Source: Microbacteriaceae bacterium
GTDB taxonomy: Bacteria > Actinomycetota > Actinomycetes > Actinomycetales > Microbacteriaceae
Reading direction: 5' to 3'
NCBI GenBank assembly: GCA_016463265.1
Contig: JAEMRP010000010.1
Span: 1 to 13,702, forward strand
DNA: 13,702 bases
The notes under the pieces were generated by a model. That model searched no databases. It saw only the letters and a list, made by a program, of their open reading frames with translations, and was not told where the DNA came from. Position 1 is the stretch's first letter; each line of letters starts with the position of its first letter. Shown here one piece after another: positions 7,294 through 13,702 of the stretch. Position numbers and translations under genes: made by a program.

Positions 7294-7322
7294 GAGACAG
7301 AGAGCGTGCCGACCAATAGGCT
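7294..7322 (+). promoter_or_regulatory. Candidate promoter for the biotin carboxylase gene
   Basis: GAGACA (7294-7299; 4 of 6 match to TTGACA) is followed by a 17-bp spacer and TAGGCT (7317-7322, fits TANNNT). Seven nt then lead to the A of ATG at 7330, so the transcript could begin at the start codon. This is the best -35/-10 pair seen in the window. Initiation at 7330 would leave no room for an SD, although AAAGGG lies 1 nt before the ATG. Confidence 0.5.
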
Positions 7323-7329
7323 AAAGGGC

Positions 7330-9099
7330 ATGTCAGCACGCATTACCAAGGTCCTTATCGCTAACCGCGGTGAAATTGCTGTTCGCGTCATGCGCGCAGC
7401 GAAAGATGCGGGAATCGCGACTGTCGCGGTTTACGCGAATCAGGACATCAATTCTCAGCACGTCAAAATGGCGGACGAAGCCATCAGCCTGCACGGCACA
7501 ACGAGTGCCGACACCTACCTCGTCATTGCCAAAATTCTCGCGGCCGCAAAACGAACGGGCGCCAACGCGATTCACCCCGGGTATGGATTTCTCTCCGAGA
7601 ACGCGGACTTTGCCCGAGCCGTGGTGGATGCAGGAATCATTTGGATCGGACCGACTCCAGAGGCAATCGAACGCCTCGGTGACAAGGTCAGTGCTCGTCA
7701 CGTCGCTCAGAAGGTTGGCGCTCCGCTCGCACCGGGGACACTGAACCCGGTCGAGACCGCCCAGGAAGTCCTCGACTTCGTGGATGTTCACGGGCTCCCC
7801 GTCGCCATCAAGGCAGCGTTTGGTGGCGGTGGACGTGGGCTCAAGGTCGTGCATACACGCGAAGAAATCCCCGAGCAGTTCGAGTCCGCGACGCGCGAGG
7901 CCATCGCCGCGTTCGGTCGCGGTGAATGTTTCGTCGAGAAGTACCTCGACAAACCCCGACACGTCGAGACACAGTGCCTAGCCGACCACAAGGGAAACGT
8001 GGTCGTCGTGTCAACGCGTGACTGCTCGTTGCAAAGGCGTCACCAGAAACTCGTCGAGGAAGCCCCCGCACCGTTCCTCACCGACGCTCAGCGAGACCTG
8101 CTGTATTCGGCGTCAAAGAACATCCTGAAAGAGGTCGGCTACGTCGGCGCGGGAACCTGTGAATTTTTGATTGGCGCCGACGGCACTATCACCTTCCTCG
8201 AGGTCAACACTCGCCTCCAGGTCGAACACCCCGTGTCAGAAGAAGTCACCGGCCTCGACCTGGTTCGTGAACAGTTCCGAATCGCCGAGGGCGGTCTCGT
8301 CGACTACCCGGACCCGATCATCACGGGCCACTCGATCGAATTTCGCATCAACGGTGAAGACGCCGGCGCCAACTTCCGCCCCACTCCCGGACCAATCAAA
8401 GCACTTCGCCTCCCCGGTGGCCCAGGCATCCGGGTTGATGCCGGTTTCGTTCCTGGTGACGTAATCTCTGGTTCATTCGACTCGCTGCTCGCCAAGCTCA
8501 TCGTCACCGGTAGAGACCGAAAAGACGCTCTAGCCAAGGCTCGACGGGCGTTGAGCGAATTCCAGGTCGTTGGGCTCCCGACAGTGCTCCCGTTCCACCA
8601 ACTCGTCGTGAACGATCCGGCGTTTGCTCCCGTGGGCGACGAACCCTTCGCGATCTATACGAGCTGGATTGAGACCGAATTCAACAACACCGTCGCCGAA
8701 TATGCCGGCCTTATCGGCGCCGGTGAAGCGACCGACACCCGCCACGACGTCGTCGTCGAGGTCGACGGTAAGCGCATCGCCGTTTCGGTTCCCGATTCGC
8801 TGTTGCCGACGTCGGCTCGAATCCACAAGCCTCTTGCACCGGTGCGCTCCACGGCCGTTCATGCGTCCGGCGCGAGCGGAAACGACGTTGCCTCTCCGAT
8901 GCAGGCGACGGTTGTCAAGGTCGAGGTCGCACCCGGCGATGTCGTGGTCAAGGGGCAGACCGTCGTCGTTCTTGAAGCGATGAAGATGGAACAGGCCATC
9001 ACCGCGTCCCGTGACGGTGTCGTCGCCAAGGTCAGCGCCGAGGTCGGGACGACGGTCAAGGCCGGTTTCGTGTTGCTCTCGCTCGAAAAGAGTTCCTAG
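7330..9099 (+). CDS. accA: Acyl-CoA carboxylase alpha subunit: biotin carboxylase fused to biotin carboxyl carrier protein
   Basis: It uses ATP and bicarbonate to carboxylate its own biotin, which then feeds AccD. From ATG 7330 it is 589 aa: biotin carboxylase N-domain (about 1-115, starting [19 protein letters not shown]), ATP-grasp (about 115-320) with [26 protein letters not shown] and [17 protein letters not shown]-terminal biotin carboxylase domain (about 330-440), a linker, then a lipoyl-like BCCP with VLEAMKMEQ where Lys552 (codon 8983-8985) receives biotin. An in-frame GTG at 7306 would add 8 residues, but homologues begin right before the KVLIANRGE strand and the ATG fits the promoter described, so 7330 is preferred. 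The adjacent BirA should biotinylate it. It precedes the PNP gene by 2 bp. Confidence 0.96.
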
Positions 9100-9101
9100 A
9101 C

Positions 9102-9198
9102 ATGATGCACAGTGGCTCACACCCCCTCGACGATCCTTCGGTAGACCCCCAGGAAGTGGCCCGCGAGGCCGCCACCCAAATCGCAAAAAAAGACGGGA
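9102..9198 (+). pseudogene. Displaced N-terminal segment of the purine nucleoside phosphorylase gene (frame-shifted from 9199-9942)
   Basis: From ATG 9102 (or 9105) the frame encodes MMHSGSHPLDDPSVDPQEVA and continues REAATQIAKK to 9191. This resembles the N-terminus expected of actinobacterial PNPs (a PLDDP-type lead and an amphipathic helix ahead of TGVAKHDIALTLGSG). The run of seven A at 9185-9191 puts the rest of the gene in the +1 frame, so this frame goes on out of register and stops at 9243-9245 (46-47 codons). With six A the two parts would fuse as IAKK-TGVAKHD, giving a 279-aa PNP of normal length. The upstream frame of 9199-9942 itself has a TAG at 9142-9144 and no start codon before 9199. 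Confidence 0.75.
9185..9191 (+). other. Seven-A run at the frame break in the PNP gene
   Basis: The sequence is GC, seven A, then GACGGGAGTG. Reading across it with one base fewer restores the family frame. A -1 ribosomal slip would not help: that frame reaches TGA within about ten codons. Only a +1 (or -2) shift, an mRNA one A shorter, or a one-base sequence error reconnects the gene. Confidence 0.85.
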
Positions 9199-9942
9199 GT
9201 GGCGAAGCACGACATCGCGCTGACTCTCGGCAGCGGTTGGGGTAAAGCGGCTGACCTCATCGGCGAGACGATCGCCGAATTCCCCGCCACCGAAATCACG
9301 GGGTTCTCGAAGCCCGCGGTCGAGGGTCACGTCGGAACGATTCGTTCGATTCGCACGGCCTCCGGTGCTCACGCGCTCATTATCGGAGCGCGCACTCACT
9401 TTTACGAGGACCACGGCGTTCGGCGGGTTGTGCATTCGGTTCGCACGGCTGCTGCAACCGGCGCCAAAATCATGGTGCTGACCAACGGGGCCGGTGGGCT
9501 CAAGGAGTCGTGGGGGCCCGGGACTCCCGTTCTAATTAGCGACCACATCAACCTCACCGCATCATCGCCTCTCGAGGGTGCAACGTTCATTGACCTCACC
9601 GACTTGTATTCGACCCGTCTGCGTGAGCTCGCTCGAAGCGTCAAACCCGACCTGGACGAAGGCGTTTATGTGCAGTTCCGCGGACCGCACTACGAAACTC
9701 CCGCCGAGGTACAAATGGCGGGACGCATGGGCGGACACATCGTCGGAATGTCGACGGCGCTCGAAGCCATCGCCGCTCGCGAATCCGGAATGGAAGTGAT
9801 CGGTTTCTCGCTCATCACCAACCTCGCTGCGGGGCTCGGTGATCCCCTCAGCCACGCCGAGGTGATTGCTGCCGGCAAGGACGCCGAGCCCGTGATGTCG
9901 GCGTTGCTCGCCGACGTCGTCGCCGCACTCGTCAAGGGATAA
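9199..9942 (+). CDS. punA: Purine nucleoside phosphorylase (trimeric PNP family), frame-shifted relative to its own N-terminus
   Basis: PNP splits purine (deoxy)ribonucleosides with phosphate into base and (deoxy)ribose-1-phosphate. From the GTG at 9199 this frame gives 247 aa with phosphate loop LTLGSGWGKA (9-18), GHVGTI (43-48), the GARTHFYEDHG segment (63-73), TNGAGGL (95-101), DHINLTASSPLEG (115-127), QFRGPHYETPAE (159-170), VGMSTALEA (182-190) and SLITNLAAG (204-212), where the family's base-binding Asn lies. All catalytic parts are therefore present in this frame; only the first ~32 residues are missing and lie in the frame at 9102. If GTG 9199 is used directly, a shortened but possibly active enzyme results; GGGA just before it is a poor SD. 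The neighbouring phosphomutase (start 3 bp after this stop) would convert its sugar product. Confidence 0.88.
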   Translation: MAKHDIALTLGSGWGKAADLIGETIAEFPATEITGFSKPAVEGHVGTIRSIRTASGAHALIIGARTHFYEDHGVRRVVHSVRTAAATGAKIMVLTNGAGGLKESWGPGTPVLISDHINLTASSPLEGATFIDLTDLYSTRLRELARSVKPDLDEGVYVQFRGPHYETPAEVQMAGRMGGHIVGMSTALEAIAARESGMEVIGFSLITNLAAGLGDPLSHAEVIAAGKDAEPVMSALLADVVAALVKG

Positions 9943-9945
9943 TCC

Positions 9946-11601
9946 GTGTCATCGCGTGACCTGATTGCCCGAGCAAACGCGTGGCTCGCGCAGGATCCCG
10001 ACGCCGAGACCGCCGCTGAACTGGAAGCAATCATCGCCCGTGCCGATGCCGGTGACGAATCCGCATTTGCCGACCTCTCTGACCGTTTCGACACACGCTT
10101 GACGTTCGGCACGGCCGGACTTCGCGGCGAGTTGGGTGCCGGCCCGAACCGCATGAACCGAGTTCTCGTTTCTCAGGCCGCGCACGGGTTCGCTCAATTC
10201 CTCTTGGAACGCGAAGTGAAACCGAGCGTCGTAATCGGCTACGACGGTCGCGTGAATTCGGACGTATTCGCTCGGGACTCCGCCGAAATCTTCGCGGGGC
10301 TCGGTTTGCGCGTCATCCTGTTTGATCGCGCGATTCCGACACCCGTTGTCGCGACTGCCCTGCGCGAACTAGGGCTGAGTGCTGCGGTCGTCGTCACCGC
10401 GAGTCACAACCCGCCGCGCGACAACGGATACAAAGTGTATTTGGGGGGCAAGGATGCTGGGTCACAGATCGTGTCCCCGGACGACACCGACATCGAAGCC
10501 CTGATTCTGCACGCGACGAACCTGAACATCGCCGATTTCCCGCGGTCGAGCGTCTACAACACCGCTCCCGAATCACTCATCGACACGTTCGTGGAGAAAA
10601 CTGCGGCGATCTCGACTCGACCCGCGACTCCCGTCCGATTCGTCTACACCGCGCTGCACGGCGTCGGGTGGGAGCTCGCAAATCGGTGTTATCTCGCCGC
10701 AGGATTGGGTGACGCAATCGTCGTCCCCGAACAGATCGAACCCGACGGCGCTTTCCCCACGGTGGCGTTTCCCAACCCAGAAGAACCAGGGGCTCTCGAC
10801 CTCGCGTATGCGACGGCCGACCGGGCCGGAGTGGAACTCATCATCGCGAACGACCCCGATGCAGACCGGCTCGCGGTCGCTATCCGAGACAACGGCGCAT
10901 GGCGTCGACTGACCGGAAACGAGGTCGGAAGTCTGCTCGGGTGGCGCGCCGCCGAGCGCAGCAAGGGAACCGGAAAACCCGCCGCTCTCGCCGCGTCGAT
11001 TGTCTCGTCCCCCGCTCTTGGCGCGGTTGCCGCAGACTACGGAATCGAGTTTTCGTACACGCTGACGGGGTTCAAGTTCGTCAACCGTGTACCGAACCTC
11101 ATTTTCGGTTACGAGGAGGCACTGGGGTATCTCGTCGACCCAAACAAGGTTCGCGACAAAGACGGCATCTCGGCCGCGATTGATTTTCTGTCGATGGCTG
11201 GTGAGCTCCAAGAGCGCGGGCTGACCATCGCCGATCACCTCGTGGAATTCGCCGACAGATTCGGCGCGTTCGCGTCGACCCAGATTTCACTTCGCGTCGC
11301 CAATTTGTCGGACATCCCCGCCATCTCGTCGAAATTCCGCGATTCGCCGCCGGCGATGCTCGGCGGTCGTGCGGTGACGGCCGTAGACGATTTTGCGAAC
11401 GGATTCGAGAACTTCCCTCCGACGGACTTGATTCGGCTGACAATCGACGGTGGCTCACGCGTCATCGTTCGCCCCTCGGGCACAGAGCCGAAGCTCAAGA
11501 TCTACATCGATGCGGCCGTCACCGAGGGGTCGGACCGATCGGCCCGTGTCGCTGACGTCGTCGCGGCCATCGAATCGGACCTCCGGGCATTTATCGCATG
11601 A
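9946..11601 (+). CDS. PGM2-like phosphohexomutase / phosphopentomutase (alpha-D-phosphohexomutase family)
   Basis: It interconverts sugar 1- and 6- (or 5-) phosphates through a phosphoserine. At 551 aa it has the long PGM2-type architecture: FGTAGLRGELG (54-64), active-site TASHNPPRDNGYK (151-163, phosphoserine Ser153), metal-binding DPDADR (303-308), sugar-specificity loop GYEEALG (388-394) and phosphate-binding RPSGTEPK (509-516). Such genes are often annotated as phosphomannomutase (pmmB lies next to PNP in Mycobacterium tuberculosis), but the immediate PNP neighbour makes ribose-1-phosphate to ribose-5-phosphate conversion a reasonable main role; that is inference. GTG start at 9946 with AAGGGA (9934-9939) 6 nt upstream, inside the end of the PNP gene. 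Its TGA overlaps a tiny 9-codon ATG frame (11598-11627) that leads into the P450. Confidence 0.94.
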   Translation: MSSRDLIARANAWLAQDPDAETAAELEAIIARADAGDESAFADLSDRFDTRLTFGTAGLRGELGAGPNRMNRVLVSQAAHGFAQFLLEREVKPSVVIGYDGRVNSDVFARDSAEIFAGLGLRVILFDRAIPTPVVATALRELGLSAAVVVTASHNPPRDNGYKVYLGGKDAGSQIVSPDDTDIEALILHATNLNIADFPRSSVYNTAPESLIDTFVEKTAAISTRPATPVRFVYTALHGVGWELANRCYLAAGLGDAIVVPEQIEPDGAFPTVAFPNPEEPGALDLAYATADRAGVELIIANDPDADRLAVAIRDNGAWRRLTGNEVGSLLGWRAAERSKGTGKPAALAASIVSSPALGAVAADYGIEFSYTLTGFKFVNRVPNLIFGYEEALGYLVDPNKVRDKDGISAAIDFLSMAGELQERGLTIADHLVEFADRFGAFASTQISLRVANLSDIPAISSKFRDSPPAMLGGRAVTAVDDFANGFENFPPTDLIRLTIDGGSRVIVRPSGTEPKLKIYIDAAVTEGSDRSARVADVVAAIESDLRAFIA

Positions 11602-11619: not shown

Positions 11620-12801
11620 TTGCTTGATTTCGCCGACGAAGATTTCCTCGTCGACCCGTATCCTGCCCTCGCCGAGGCTAGGGCGGTCGGTAAACCGCTC
11701 TGGCACGAACCGACCGGGATGTTCCTCGCCGCGCGTCACACCGACGCCAACGCGGTATTGCGCAATAAGTCGCTCGGCAGGATTTTCACACCGAAGACTC
11801 CCGATAACGAATGGCATGACTTTAACTACCTGCATTCGGATTCGATGCTCGATTCCGAGCCCCCCAAGCACACACGGTTGAAGTCGCTCGTGAGCAAAGC
11901 ATTCAATCCGCGCACAATCACCGCCCTCACGCCCCACATCGAGCGGCTCACAACAGAACTGCTCGACGACTGTGCGGAAAAACTCGAAACGGACGGCACA
12001 TTCGATGTTCTCGCTGATTTTGCCGAGCCGCTTCCGGTCAAGGTCATCGCCCACATGCTCGGGTTCCCCGACGCCGACGAGCACCTCTTGCGGCCGTGGT
12101 CGCAATCCATCGTGAAGATGTACGAGGTCAACCCCAGCGAAACCCACGAGACCGAGGCTCGTGCTTCGGCGACGGAATTTGCCGACTATGTTCACGGTTT
12201 GATGCAACTTCGGAAGGCGTTCCCCGGAACCGACCTCATCAGCACCTTGGCTGCTGCTGAAAAGGACGGCGAGCGCCTCAGCGTCGAGGAACTCATCGCG
12301 ACGTGCGTGTTGCTGCTCAATGCGGGACACGAAGCCAGCGTCAACGGGTTCGGAAACGGCATCGTGGCCGCATTGAAAAGACCCGCCGTGATGCAGCCTC
12401 TGCGCGACGACCCCCGCATCGTGTCTGGCACCGCCCTCGAGGAATTCCTTCGGTTCGATTCGCCGTTGCAACTTTTCGAACGCACCGCGACCACCCACAC
12501 CGAGATCAACGGGGTCGCCATCCGACAAGGGCAAAAGATTGCTGCGCTGTTGGGCGCGGCCAACCGCGACCCCGACGTGTTCGACGACGCCGACTCCATG
12601 GACTTGACCCGGGAGCCGAACCAGCACATCGCGTTCGGAGCGGGAATTCACTTCTGTATCGGTGCGCCGCTCGCACGACTGGAAATGAAAATCTCGTTGC
12701 CGGCACTCATCGAGCGCTTCCCCACTCTTGAACTCGCGGGCGAACCGACTCGTCGCCCCACCTTCGTACTGCGGGGATACGACGCAATTCCCGTCACCTA
12801 G
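11620..12801 (+). CDS. Cytochrome P450
   Basis: A soluble bacterial P450 monooxygenase of 393 aa with no membrane anchor. Motifs: DPYPALAEAR near the N-terminus (12-21), the C-helix heme contact PPKHTRLKSLVSKAF (81-95), I-helix LLLNAGHEASVN (231-242), the K-helix ExxR (Glu275-Arg278, EFLR) and the heme loop FGAGIHFCIG (339-348) with Cys346 as thiolate ligand. The I-helix has Ala239 where most P450s carry the proton-relay Thr, with Ser240 next to it. No ferredoxin or reductase gene is adjacent, so electrons must come from elsewhere. It lies 18 bp after the phosphomutase and is probably co-transcribed, but its substrate cannot be inferred. The TTG start is backed by GAGGG. The gene ends 15 bp from the stop of the converging gene. 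Confidence 0.95.
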   Translation: MLDFADEDFLVDPYPALAEARAVGKPLWHEPTGMFLAARHTDANAVLRNKSLGRIFTPKTPDNEWHDFNYLHSDSMLDSEPPKHTRLKSLVSKAFNPRTITALTPHIERLTTELLDDCAEKLETDGTFDVLADFAEPLPVKVIAHMLGFPDADEHLLRPWSQSIVKMYEVNPSETHETEARASATEFADYVHGLMQLRKAFPGTDLISTLAAAEKDGERLSVEELIATCVLLLNAGHEASVNGFGNGIVAALKRPAVMQPLRDDPRIVSGTALEEFLRFDSPLQLFERTATTHTEINGVAIRQGQKIAALLGAANRDPDVFDDADSMDLTREPNQHIAFGAGIHFCIGAPLARLEMKISLPALIERFPTLELAGEPTRRPTFVLRGYDAIPVT

Positions 12802-12816
12802 GGCCTCGACCTAGCG

Positions 12817-13702
12817 CTATGGGGTCTTCGCGAAACTCATTCCCGCGAAGTTGAACGGATAGGCGTTCCACCCCCAGTCAAAACCCGAGCCGTTGATTTT
12901 GAGTTCAAACCCTATGTTCTTGTGCCTGTCGAGACCGACGAGACGGATTCCGCCGCCCTCGCTCGCGTAATCCACCAGATAGCTCGTGCCGTGCTGGTAG
13001 ATGCTCGAGCAAATTGGGCTCCATAGAGCCGGCGAGTGGTCAAATCGCCAGACTTCCTTTGCCGTCTGCTTCCTCAGGTTCAGCGAATACTGACGCGGTA
13101 CTGACTCGGATCGACCAGCGCCCGACGGAGAGTGGGCAAAACTTGCGAGACCGTTATCGAACAACATCAAGTTCCCGGCCGACGTAAACGAAACGGCGTG
13201 ATGCCCAATCGGAGGATTAGTTCCTGCCGGAAGGTCAAGCGCAAAGGCGCGGAGGGACGGGTAGGTGTACCACGCCTTGTCCGGGTCGCCCAGAATCCAC
13301 TTGATTTTGTCGTCGTCGTACCCAATGCCGATTACAAAGTCTTCTCGTCCTGACAAAACGAGTTGATTCTTCTGCTTCCAATACGTTGCTGCGTTGTTGT
13401 GGAACCAGTCGTCTCCCTGTCTAACGAAAGCGCTGGGGTCGTCACCGCCTTCGATCATCGCCTTTCGCACGATGTCCGCGACGTCCCACGTCTCCAGAAC
13501 CTCGCCGTTTGTGTCGACTTCGATGACGTCCGATTCGACGTCAGGAGACTTGTCGAACTCAAGAAGCATCCCCTCTCGACCCGGGTCGATGTTGTGGTGG
13601 AAATTGGAGTATCCGGCCGCCGAGTAATTCCCCACCGAGTGGGAATCACCGAACGGCGTGATTTCGTAAAGGTCGCTACCGTTTCCTACATAAAAATTGT
13701 TC
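12817..13702 (-). CDS. Arylsulfotransferase (ASST) family protein, 5' end beyond window
   Basis: The frame is open from the window edge to TAG at 12819-12817; 294 residues are visible and the N-terminus is missing. Family members are beta-propeller enzymes that move sulfate between phenolic compounds, usually outside the membrane. Recognisable blocks (numbered from the first visible codon): NFHHNIDPGREGMLLEF (33-49), VIEVDTNGEVLETWDV (59-74), DWFHNNAATYWKQKNQLVLS (98-117), GREDFVIGIG (118-127), IKWILGDPDKAW (133-144) and IGHHAVSFTSAGNLMLFDNG (165-184). His101, Arg119 and His167/His168 fall where E. coli-type AssT has its catalytic His and Arg residues. A GTG at 13635 lies inside the conserved region and is not the true start. 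Actual sulfotransferase activity is unproven, as many actinobacterial members are uncharacterised. Sampled 60-base rows of this gene are about 45-55% GC, lower than the carboxylase genes. Confidence 0.82.
   Translation of the reverse strand, partial: NNFYVGNGSDLYEITPFGDSHSVGNYSAAGYSNFHHNIDPGREGMLLEFDKSPDVESDVIEVDTNGEVLETWDVADIVRKAMIEGGDDPSAFVRQGDDWFHNNAATYWKQKNQLVLSGREDFVIGIGYDDDKIKWILGDPDKAWYTYPSLRAFALDLPAGTNPPIGHHAVSFTSAGNLMLFDNGLASFAHSPSGAGRSESVPRQYSLNLRKQTAKEVWRFDHSPALWSPICSSIYQHGTSYLVDYASEGGGIRLVGLDRHKNIGFELKINGSGFDWGWNAYPFNFAGMSFAKTP

Follow-up and report, generated by a model that had tools for sequence, protein, structure and literature searches.

A one-base shift at a run of seven A residues divides the purine nucleoside phosphorylase gene of a draft Microbacteriaceae genome

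Introduction

Why would a conserved salvage enzyme be laid out in two reading frames? The question is raised by a purine nucleoside phosphorylase (PNP) gene in the window, by which we mean the whole stretch of 13,702 nucleotides that was analyzed (61% G+C). The window makes up contig C95 of a draft genome that comprises 1,215,161 bases in 252 contigs and is 83.4% complete. A sequence-only reading had described the gene as split at a homopolymer and had offered three causes: a homopolymer error, named as the simplest, a recent indel that inactivates or truncates the enzyme, or rescue of an intact product by slippage of RNA polymerase. Here, we weigh these causes against the gene's relatives, the selection on its two pieces, and the quality of the assembly from which it was taken.

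Results and Discussion

The upstream frame (9102 to 9245, + strand) opens at ATG 9102 and carries 30 codons of a PNP N-terminus, MMHSGSHPLDDPSVDPQEVAREAATQIAKK, into a run of seven A residues (A7) at 9185 to 9191 (+ strand). Past the run, this frame has no further resemblance to PNP and ends with TAA at 9243 to 9245. The remainder of the enzyme continues in the +1 frame as an open reading frame at 9199 to 9942 (+ strand; 744 nt including the stop, 247 aa), the first start codon of which is GTG 9199. Close relatives read REAATQIAKKTGVAKHDIALTLGSGWG in a single frame, and this homology to their in-frame N-terminus identifies the upstream piece as real PNP. Family models recognize the downstream product, which scored 275.4 bits against PRK08202 (curated cut-off, 218) and 224.5 against TIGR01697 (curated cut-off, 197.1); against the TIGR01698 equivalog, the downstream piece alone reached 297.7, just below the curated cut-off of 302.6. 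Its best solved relative is 1c3x, which we take to be the Cellulomonas PNP, and residues 3 to 241 align nearly end to end with 1c3x residues 29 to 264. The product therefore resembles the actinobacterial trimeric-type PNP (PRK08202/TIGR01697; 1c3x), with the difference that here alone the 30 N-terminal codons sit in another frame. Together, the frames and family matches bear out the split that had been described from the letters of the window. Judged by homology, the arrangement is not due to chance, the two halves being adjoining parts of one conserved protein. This is the only PNP match in the draft genome. Since the relatives that were checked are intact, the extra A is most likely either a sequence error or a mutation of very recent date. 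Literature searches joining PNP with frameshift and slippage, or the Cellulomonas PNP crystal structure with its N-terminal part, found no report.

Fourteen genomes of the same genus were searched, and the site is covered in 11 of them (G001 to G004, G006, G008, and G010 to G014, leaving G005, G007, and G009). PNP occupies one frame in all 11, as judged by translation in 10 and by DNA alignment in G004, which has one base fewer at the run than the source genome; the shift is shared by none. The run itself is variable. It reads GCGAAAAAG (A5) in G002, G004, G008, and G013, and GCAAAAAAG (A6) in G012 and G014, which carry the two most similar A-run alleles, while other codons occupy the position in G001, G003, G006, and G011. 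In G010, an in-frame A7 (GCC AAA AAA ACG) stands at the same place (L010, just upstream of 1501), so a run of this length is tolerated here provided that the frame is kept. The A7 of the source is one residue longer than the A6 alleles, and the simplest derivation would be an A6 allele plus one A. Farther afield, of 546 PNP loci in public genomes, the best 80, which include ten copies of the same-genus relatives, all stay open for at least 25 codons upstream. Most of the nearest records that carry a name are metagenome genomes labeled Microbacteriaceae, Micrococcales, or Actinomycetota. Comparison with close relatives, which had been proposed as a check on the split, therefore places the extra A in the source assembly only. 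Programmed or conserved recoding, including programmed +1 ribosomal frameshifting, for which relatives would be expected to share the shift site and the two frames, is rejected on the single frame found in 11 of 11 covering relatives. A viral contig (L276) that matched a 20-base pattern proved to be unrelated.

Selection was assessed on the two pieces separately, with the sequence left unaltered. Over 245 codons from 9199, omega between the source and five relatives was 0.013 to 0.034, compared with 0.012 to 0.044 among those five relatives themselves. Residues unique to one lineage over the same 245 codons numbered two in the source genome and zero to three in the other five, and ahead of the run, two to five residue differences from the five relatives were counted over 27 codons. 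Judged by these rates, the downstream part bears no sign of relaxed selection, and the 744-nt reading frame contains no second lesion. Any unconstrained period would be bounded to about 3 to 6% of the branch, a rough figure that assumes a terminal dS of 0.20 to 0.35. Either the PNP gene is functional in the cells, or its break is very recent. The earlier remark that 744 uninterrupted nucleotides imply a recent change or a protein that is still made accords with these values. The same range of omega fits slippage rescue, a very recent event, and an error alike.

One way in which the gene could work as written is through a shorter functional PNP that begins at GTG 9199, which opens a 247-aa frame containing the family-matching part of the enzyme. 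We regard this as very improbable. A restart at that codon drops a conserved N-terminus: the best 80 of 546 public loci retain the upstream in-frame codons noted above, and 11 N-terminal residues are invariant among the 12 proteins of alignment A1 (P8, L9, D11, P16, A20, A23, A24, I27, A28, T31, and G32). In addition, no clear ribosome-binding site was seen by eye at the usual distance. A helix at residues 16 to 31 (block pLDDT, 85 to 94) in the predicted structure of an intact relative would be lost with the GTG start; this is a weak point, as the model is poor overall (mean pLDDT, 59.0; the other four models, 33 to 34). Finally, the equivalent codon is GTG in one and GTC in five of the six same-genus relatives compared at this codon, and a conserved internal start at this position is rejected accordingly.

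Alternatively, A7 could be real and some full-length PNP could still be made, either through slippage of RNA polymerase to an A6 transcript or through a +1 ribosomal shift at AAA-AAA-G, in which the lysyl-tRNA would re-pair from AAA to AAG. The purifying selection visible on both sides of the run would fit such rescue, and skipping one base after AAA AAA would restore the KKTG of the relatives exactly. There are also precedents. The report on the insect endosymbiont Blochmannia vafer describes frameshifted genes with poly-A tracts that have the same kind of A-run indel, remain normally constrained elsewhere, and show no accelerated evolution; correction by transcriptional slippage was proposed for them (PMC3017870). 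Single-base transcription deletions occur in homopolymers of Buchnera and increase with run length (PMC5574713), and an eight-A run in a human gene is described as giving about a tenth of the full-length product (PMC1088944). Yet, such endosymbionts have extremely AT-biased genomes with many tracts of nine or more (PMC3017870), whereas here G+C is 61%, the tract is seven, and the shift is common to no relative checked. For slippage rescue, a long A/T tract of about nine or more would be expected; the length at which selection against A/T runs can be seen is stated to vary among bacteria but to be nine in a large share of genomes (PMC1088944). Slippage rescue would furthermore need a transcriptional deletion, an event that is rare in Escherichia coli homopolymers. 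In the transcription study, fewer than 1% of E. coli deletions began in homopolymer runs, insertions prevailed over deletions in homopolymers, and no frame-restoring error was seen (PMC5574713). Among the 11 relatives that cover the site, the shift is absent and the tract varies in length, and the frame-0 codon after the run is GAC, a sense codon at which nothing would seem to force a pause. With a short tract, an unconserved shift, and the need for a deletion, rescue is disfavored, and we consider it unlikely. Of the three causes first offered, this one has accordingly lost ground, while the homopolymer error and the recent indel stay in contention. That A7 is both real and fixed, with low-level PNP obtained by +1 re-pairing on AAA-AAA-G or by A7-to-A6 transcriptional slippage, is more doubtful still. 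If true, rescue would extend to an actinobacterium with a G+C content of about 61%, a setting remote from the AT-rich endosymbionts for which it was proposed.

How error-prone is the assembly? In a survey of frameshifts, 963 stop-to-stop open reading frames (ORFs) of G014 were compared with pieces of the source genome (65 pieces, 20 of them wholly N, with 294 kb of letters, approximately 229 kb covered by homology) and with a control drawn from three relatives (20 pieces, approximately 295 kb of letters, 2 wholly N, approximately 221 kb covered). The source genome yielded 10 candidate pairs, of which five fell at N gaps and three involved spurious reference ORFs, one in L167 and two in L260, the latter judged by eye; the L167 ORF lies antisense to what we take to be an L28-like protein. 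Of the two real frameshifts, one was that in PNP, and the other was in a T2SSE-family ATPase gene on L259. The control yielded eight pairs, among which no real frameshift was recognized: one was a tmRNA, one a short ORF (90 aa) with low identity, taken as spurious, and six were 5-prime overhangs at gene starts, in which the start codon of a stop-to-stop reference ORF coincides with the junction or closely follows it, as judged by eye. Because the window had been chosen for its frameshift, the count was taken outside it, where one frameshift in the source against none in the control is no difference, the numbers being too few. A globally error-prone assembly is therefore unsupported: apart from PNP, about 229 kb of the source held a single real frameshift, and none was recognized in about 221 kb of control.

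Near position 1118 of L259 (G000:C117), the T2SSE-family ATPase gene lacks two bases that the eight aligned relatives have, and the site is not at a homopolymer. The eight include G004, which is 97% identical over the 270-base L259 query; G010, which matched the first part of the query only, and a second G008 piece were left out. By this alignment, it is a second private frameshift of the draft. The readable sample contains eight A/T runs of seven or eight bases, four of them inside one homologous frame, one at the PNP site, and three outside the tested homology. The run at 1164 to 1170 (T7 on the + strand, A7 on the purE strand) lies inside one homologous frame; it had been cited as a sign that A7 is not always miscalled here, a view upheld by this count. 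The other A/T runs in frame indicate that A7 is not routinely miscalled in this assembly, which argues somewhat against a systematic error and not against a single one. The gaps of the draft are 10 and 100 N in length, a pattern that suggests short reads, for which A7 is seldom a problem.

These results bear on the possibility of a real loss. In this account, slippage during replication would have lengthened A6 to A7 very recently and inactivated PNP in the strain or population, so that purine salvage through PNP was lost or reduced and decay is yet to become visible. We view it as the second most probable explanation. Runs of A are prone to slip, A6 alleles are present in G012 and G014, and the draft has at least one other private frameshift, the one on L259 near 1118. 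The rarity of frameshifts in the remainder of what was sampled from the assembly also speaks for a real event. PNP also appears to be dispensable in the family, where 14 of 299 genomes have no PNP match. Against this, a match was found in the other 285, the source genome included, and in 261 of the 267 family genomes that are at least 90% complete. On these frequencies, life without PNP is plausible, and a real loss would be possible but uncommon. Such an inactivation must also have been very recent, because selection is not relaxed and the 744 nt hold no second lesion. Were A7 real and fixed, the locus would represent a young loss of PNP in a family with few genomes that have no match. The 14 genomes with no match include all six sampled from genus g13 (G026, G130, G191, G240, G284, and G321), which suggests a lineage-wide loss or replacement of the enzyme, although their completeness is 77 to 89%.

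The account that we prefer, with about even odds, attributes the extra A to a mistake in this single draft sequence. A run of six A residues, the length in the two most similar A-run alleles, would have slipped by one base at the stage of amplification, sequencing, or assembly. PNP would then most likely be intact in the living population, and the extra A would be absent from its cells. An error is favored because the extra A is private to this assembly (11 of 11 relatives and 80 of 80 public loci are in frame), because both halves evolve as a working gene, and because the source is a fragmented draft of 252 contigs, incomplete and interrupted by N gaps. It is opposed by an assembly that is not frameshift-ridden, by four other 7-base A/T runs in homologous frames, and by the probable use of short reads. 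What the comparisons establish is an extra base, restricted to the source among the genomes checked, with an intact coding signature on both sides. In what was tested, there is no difference from an ordinary homopolymer indel in a draft or from a young pseudogene, which are likewise private, single, located at a homopolymer, and found in a gene that is otherwise intact. Most likely, then, the case is an ordinary one, with no novel form of decoding involved. It calls for caution, as one surplus base in a draft can be enough for a conserved salvage enzyme to seem absent or recoded.

The split gene is flanked on the same strand by two long open frames. Upstream, at 7306 to 9099 (+ strand), lies a 597-aa frame of the biotin carboxylase plus biotin carrier type, the best model scores of which are below curated cut-offs. 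Downstream, at 9946 to 11601 (+ strand), is a phosphohexomutase-like frame of 551 aa, also with model scores below curated cut-offs. Farther along the window, a cytochrome P450 at 11620 to 12801 adjoins an arylsulfotransferase-family gene (PF05935) at 12817 to 13701 (- strand), which is cut by the end of the contig.
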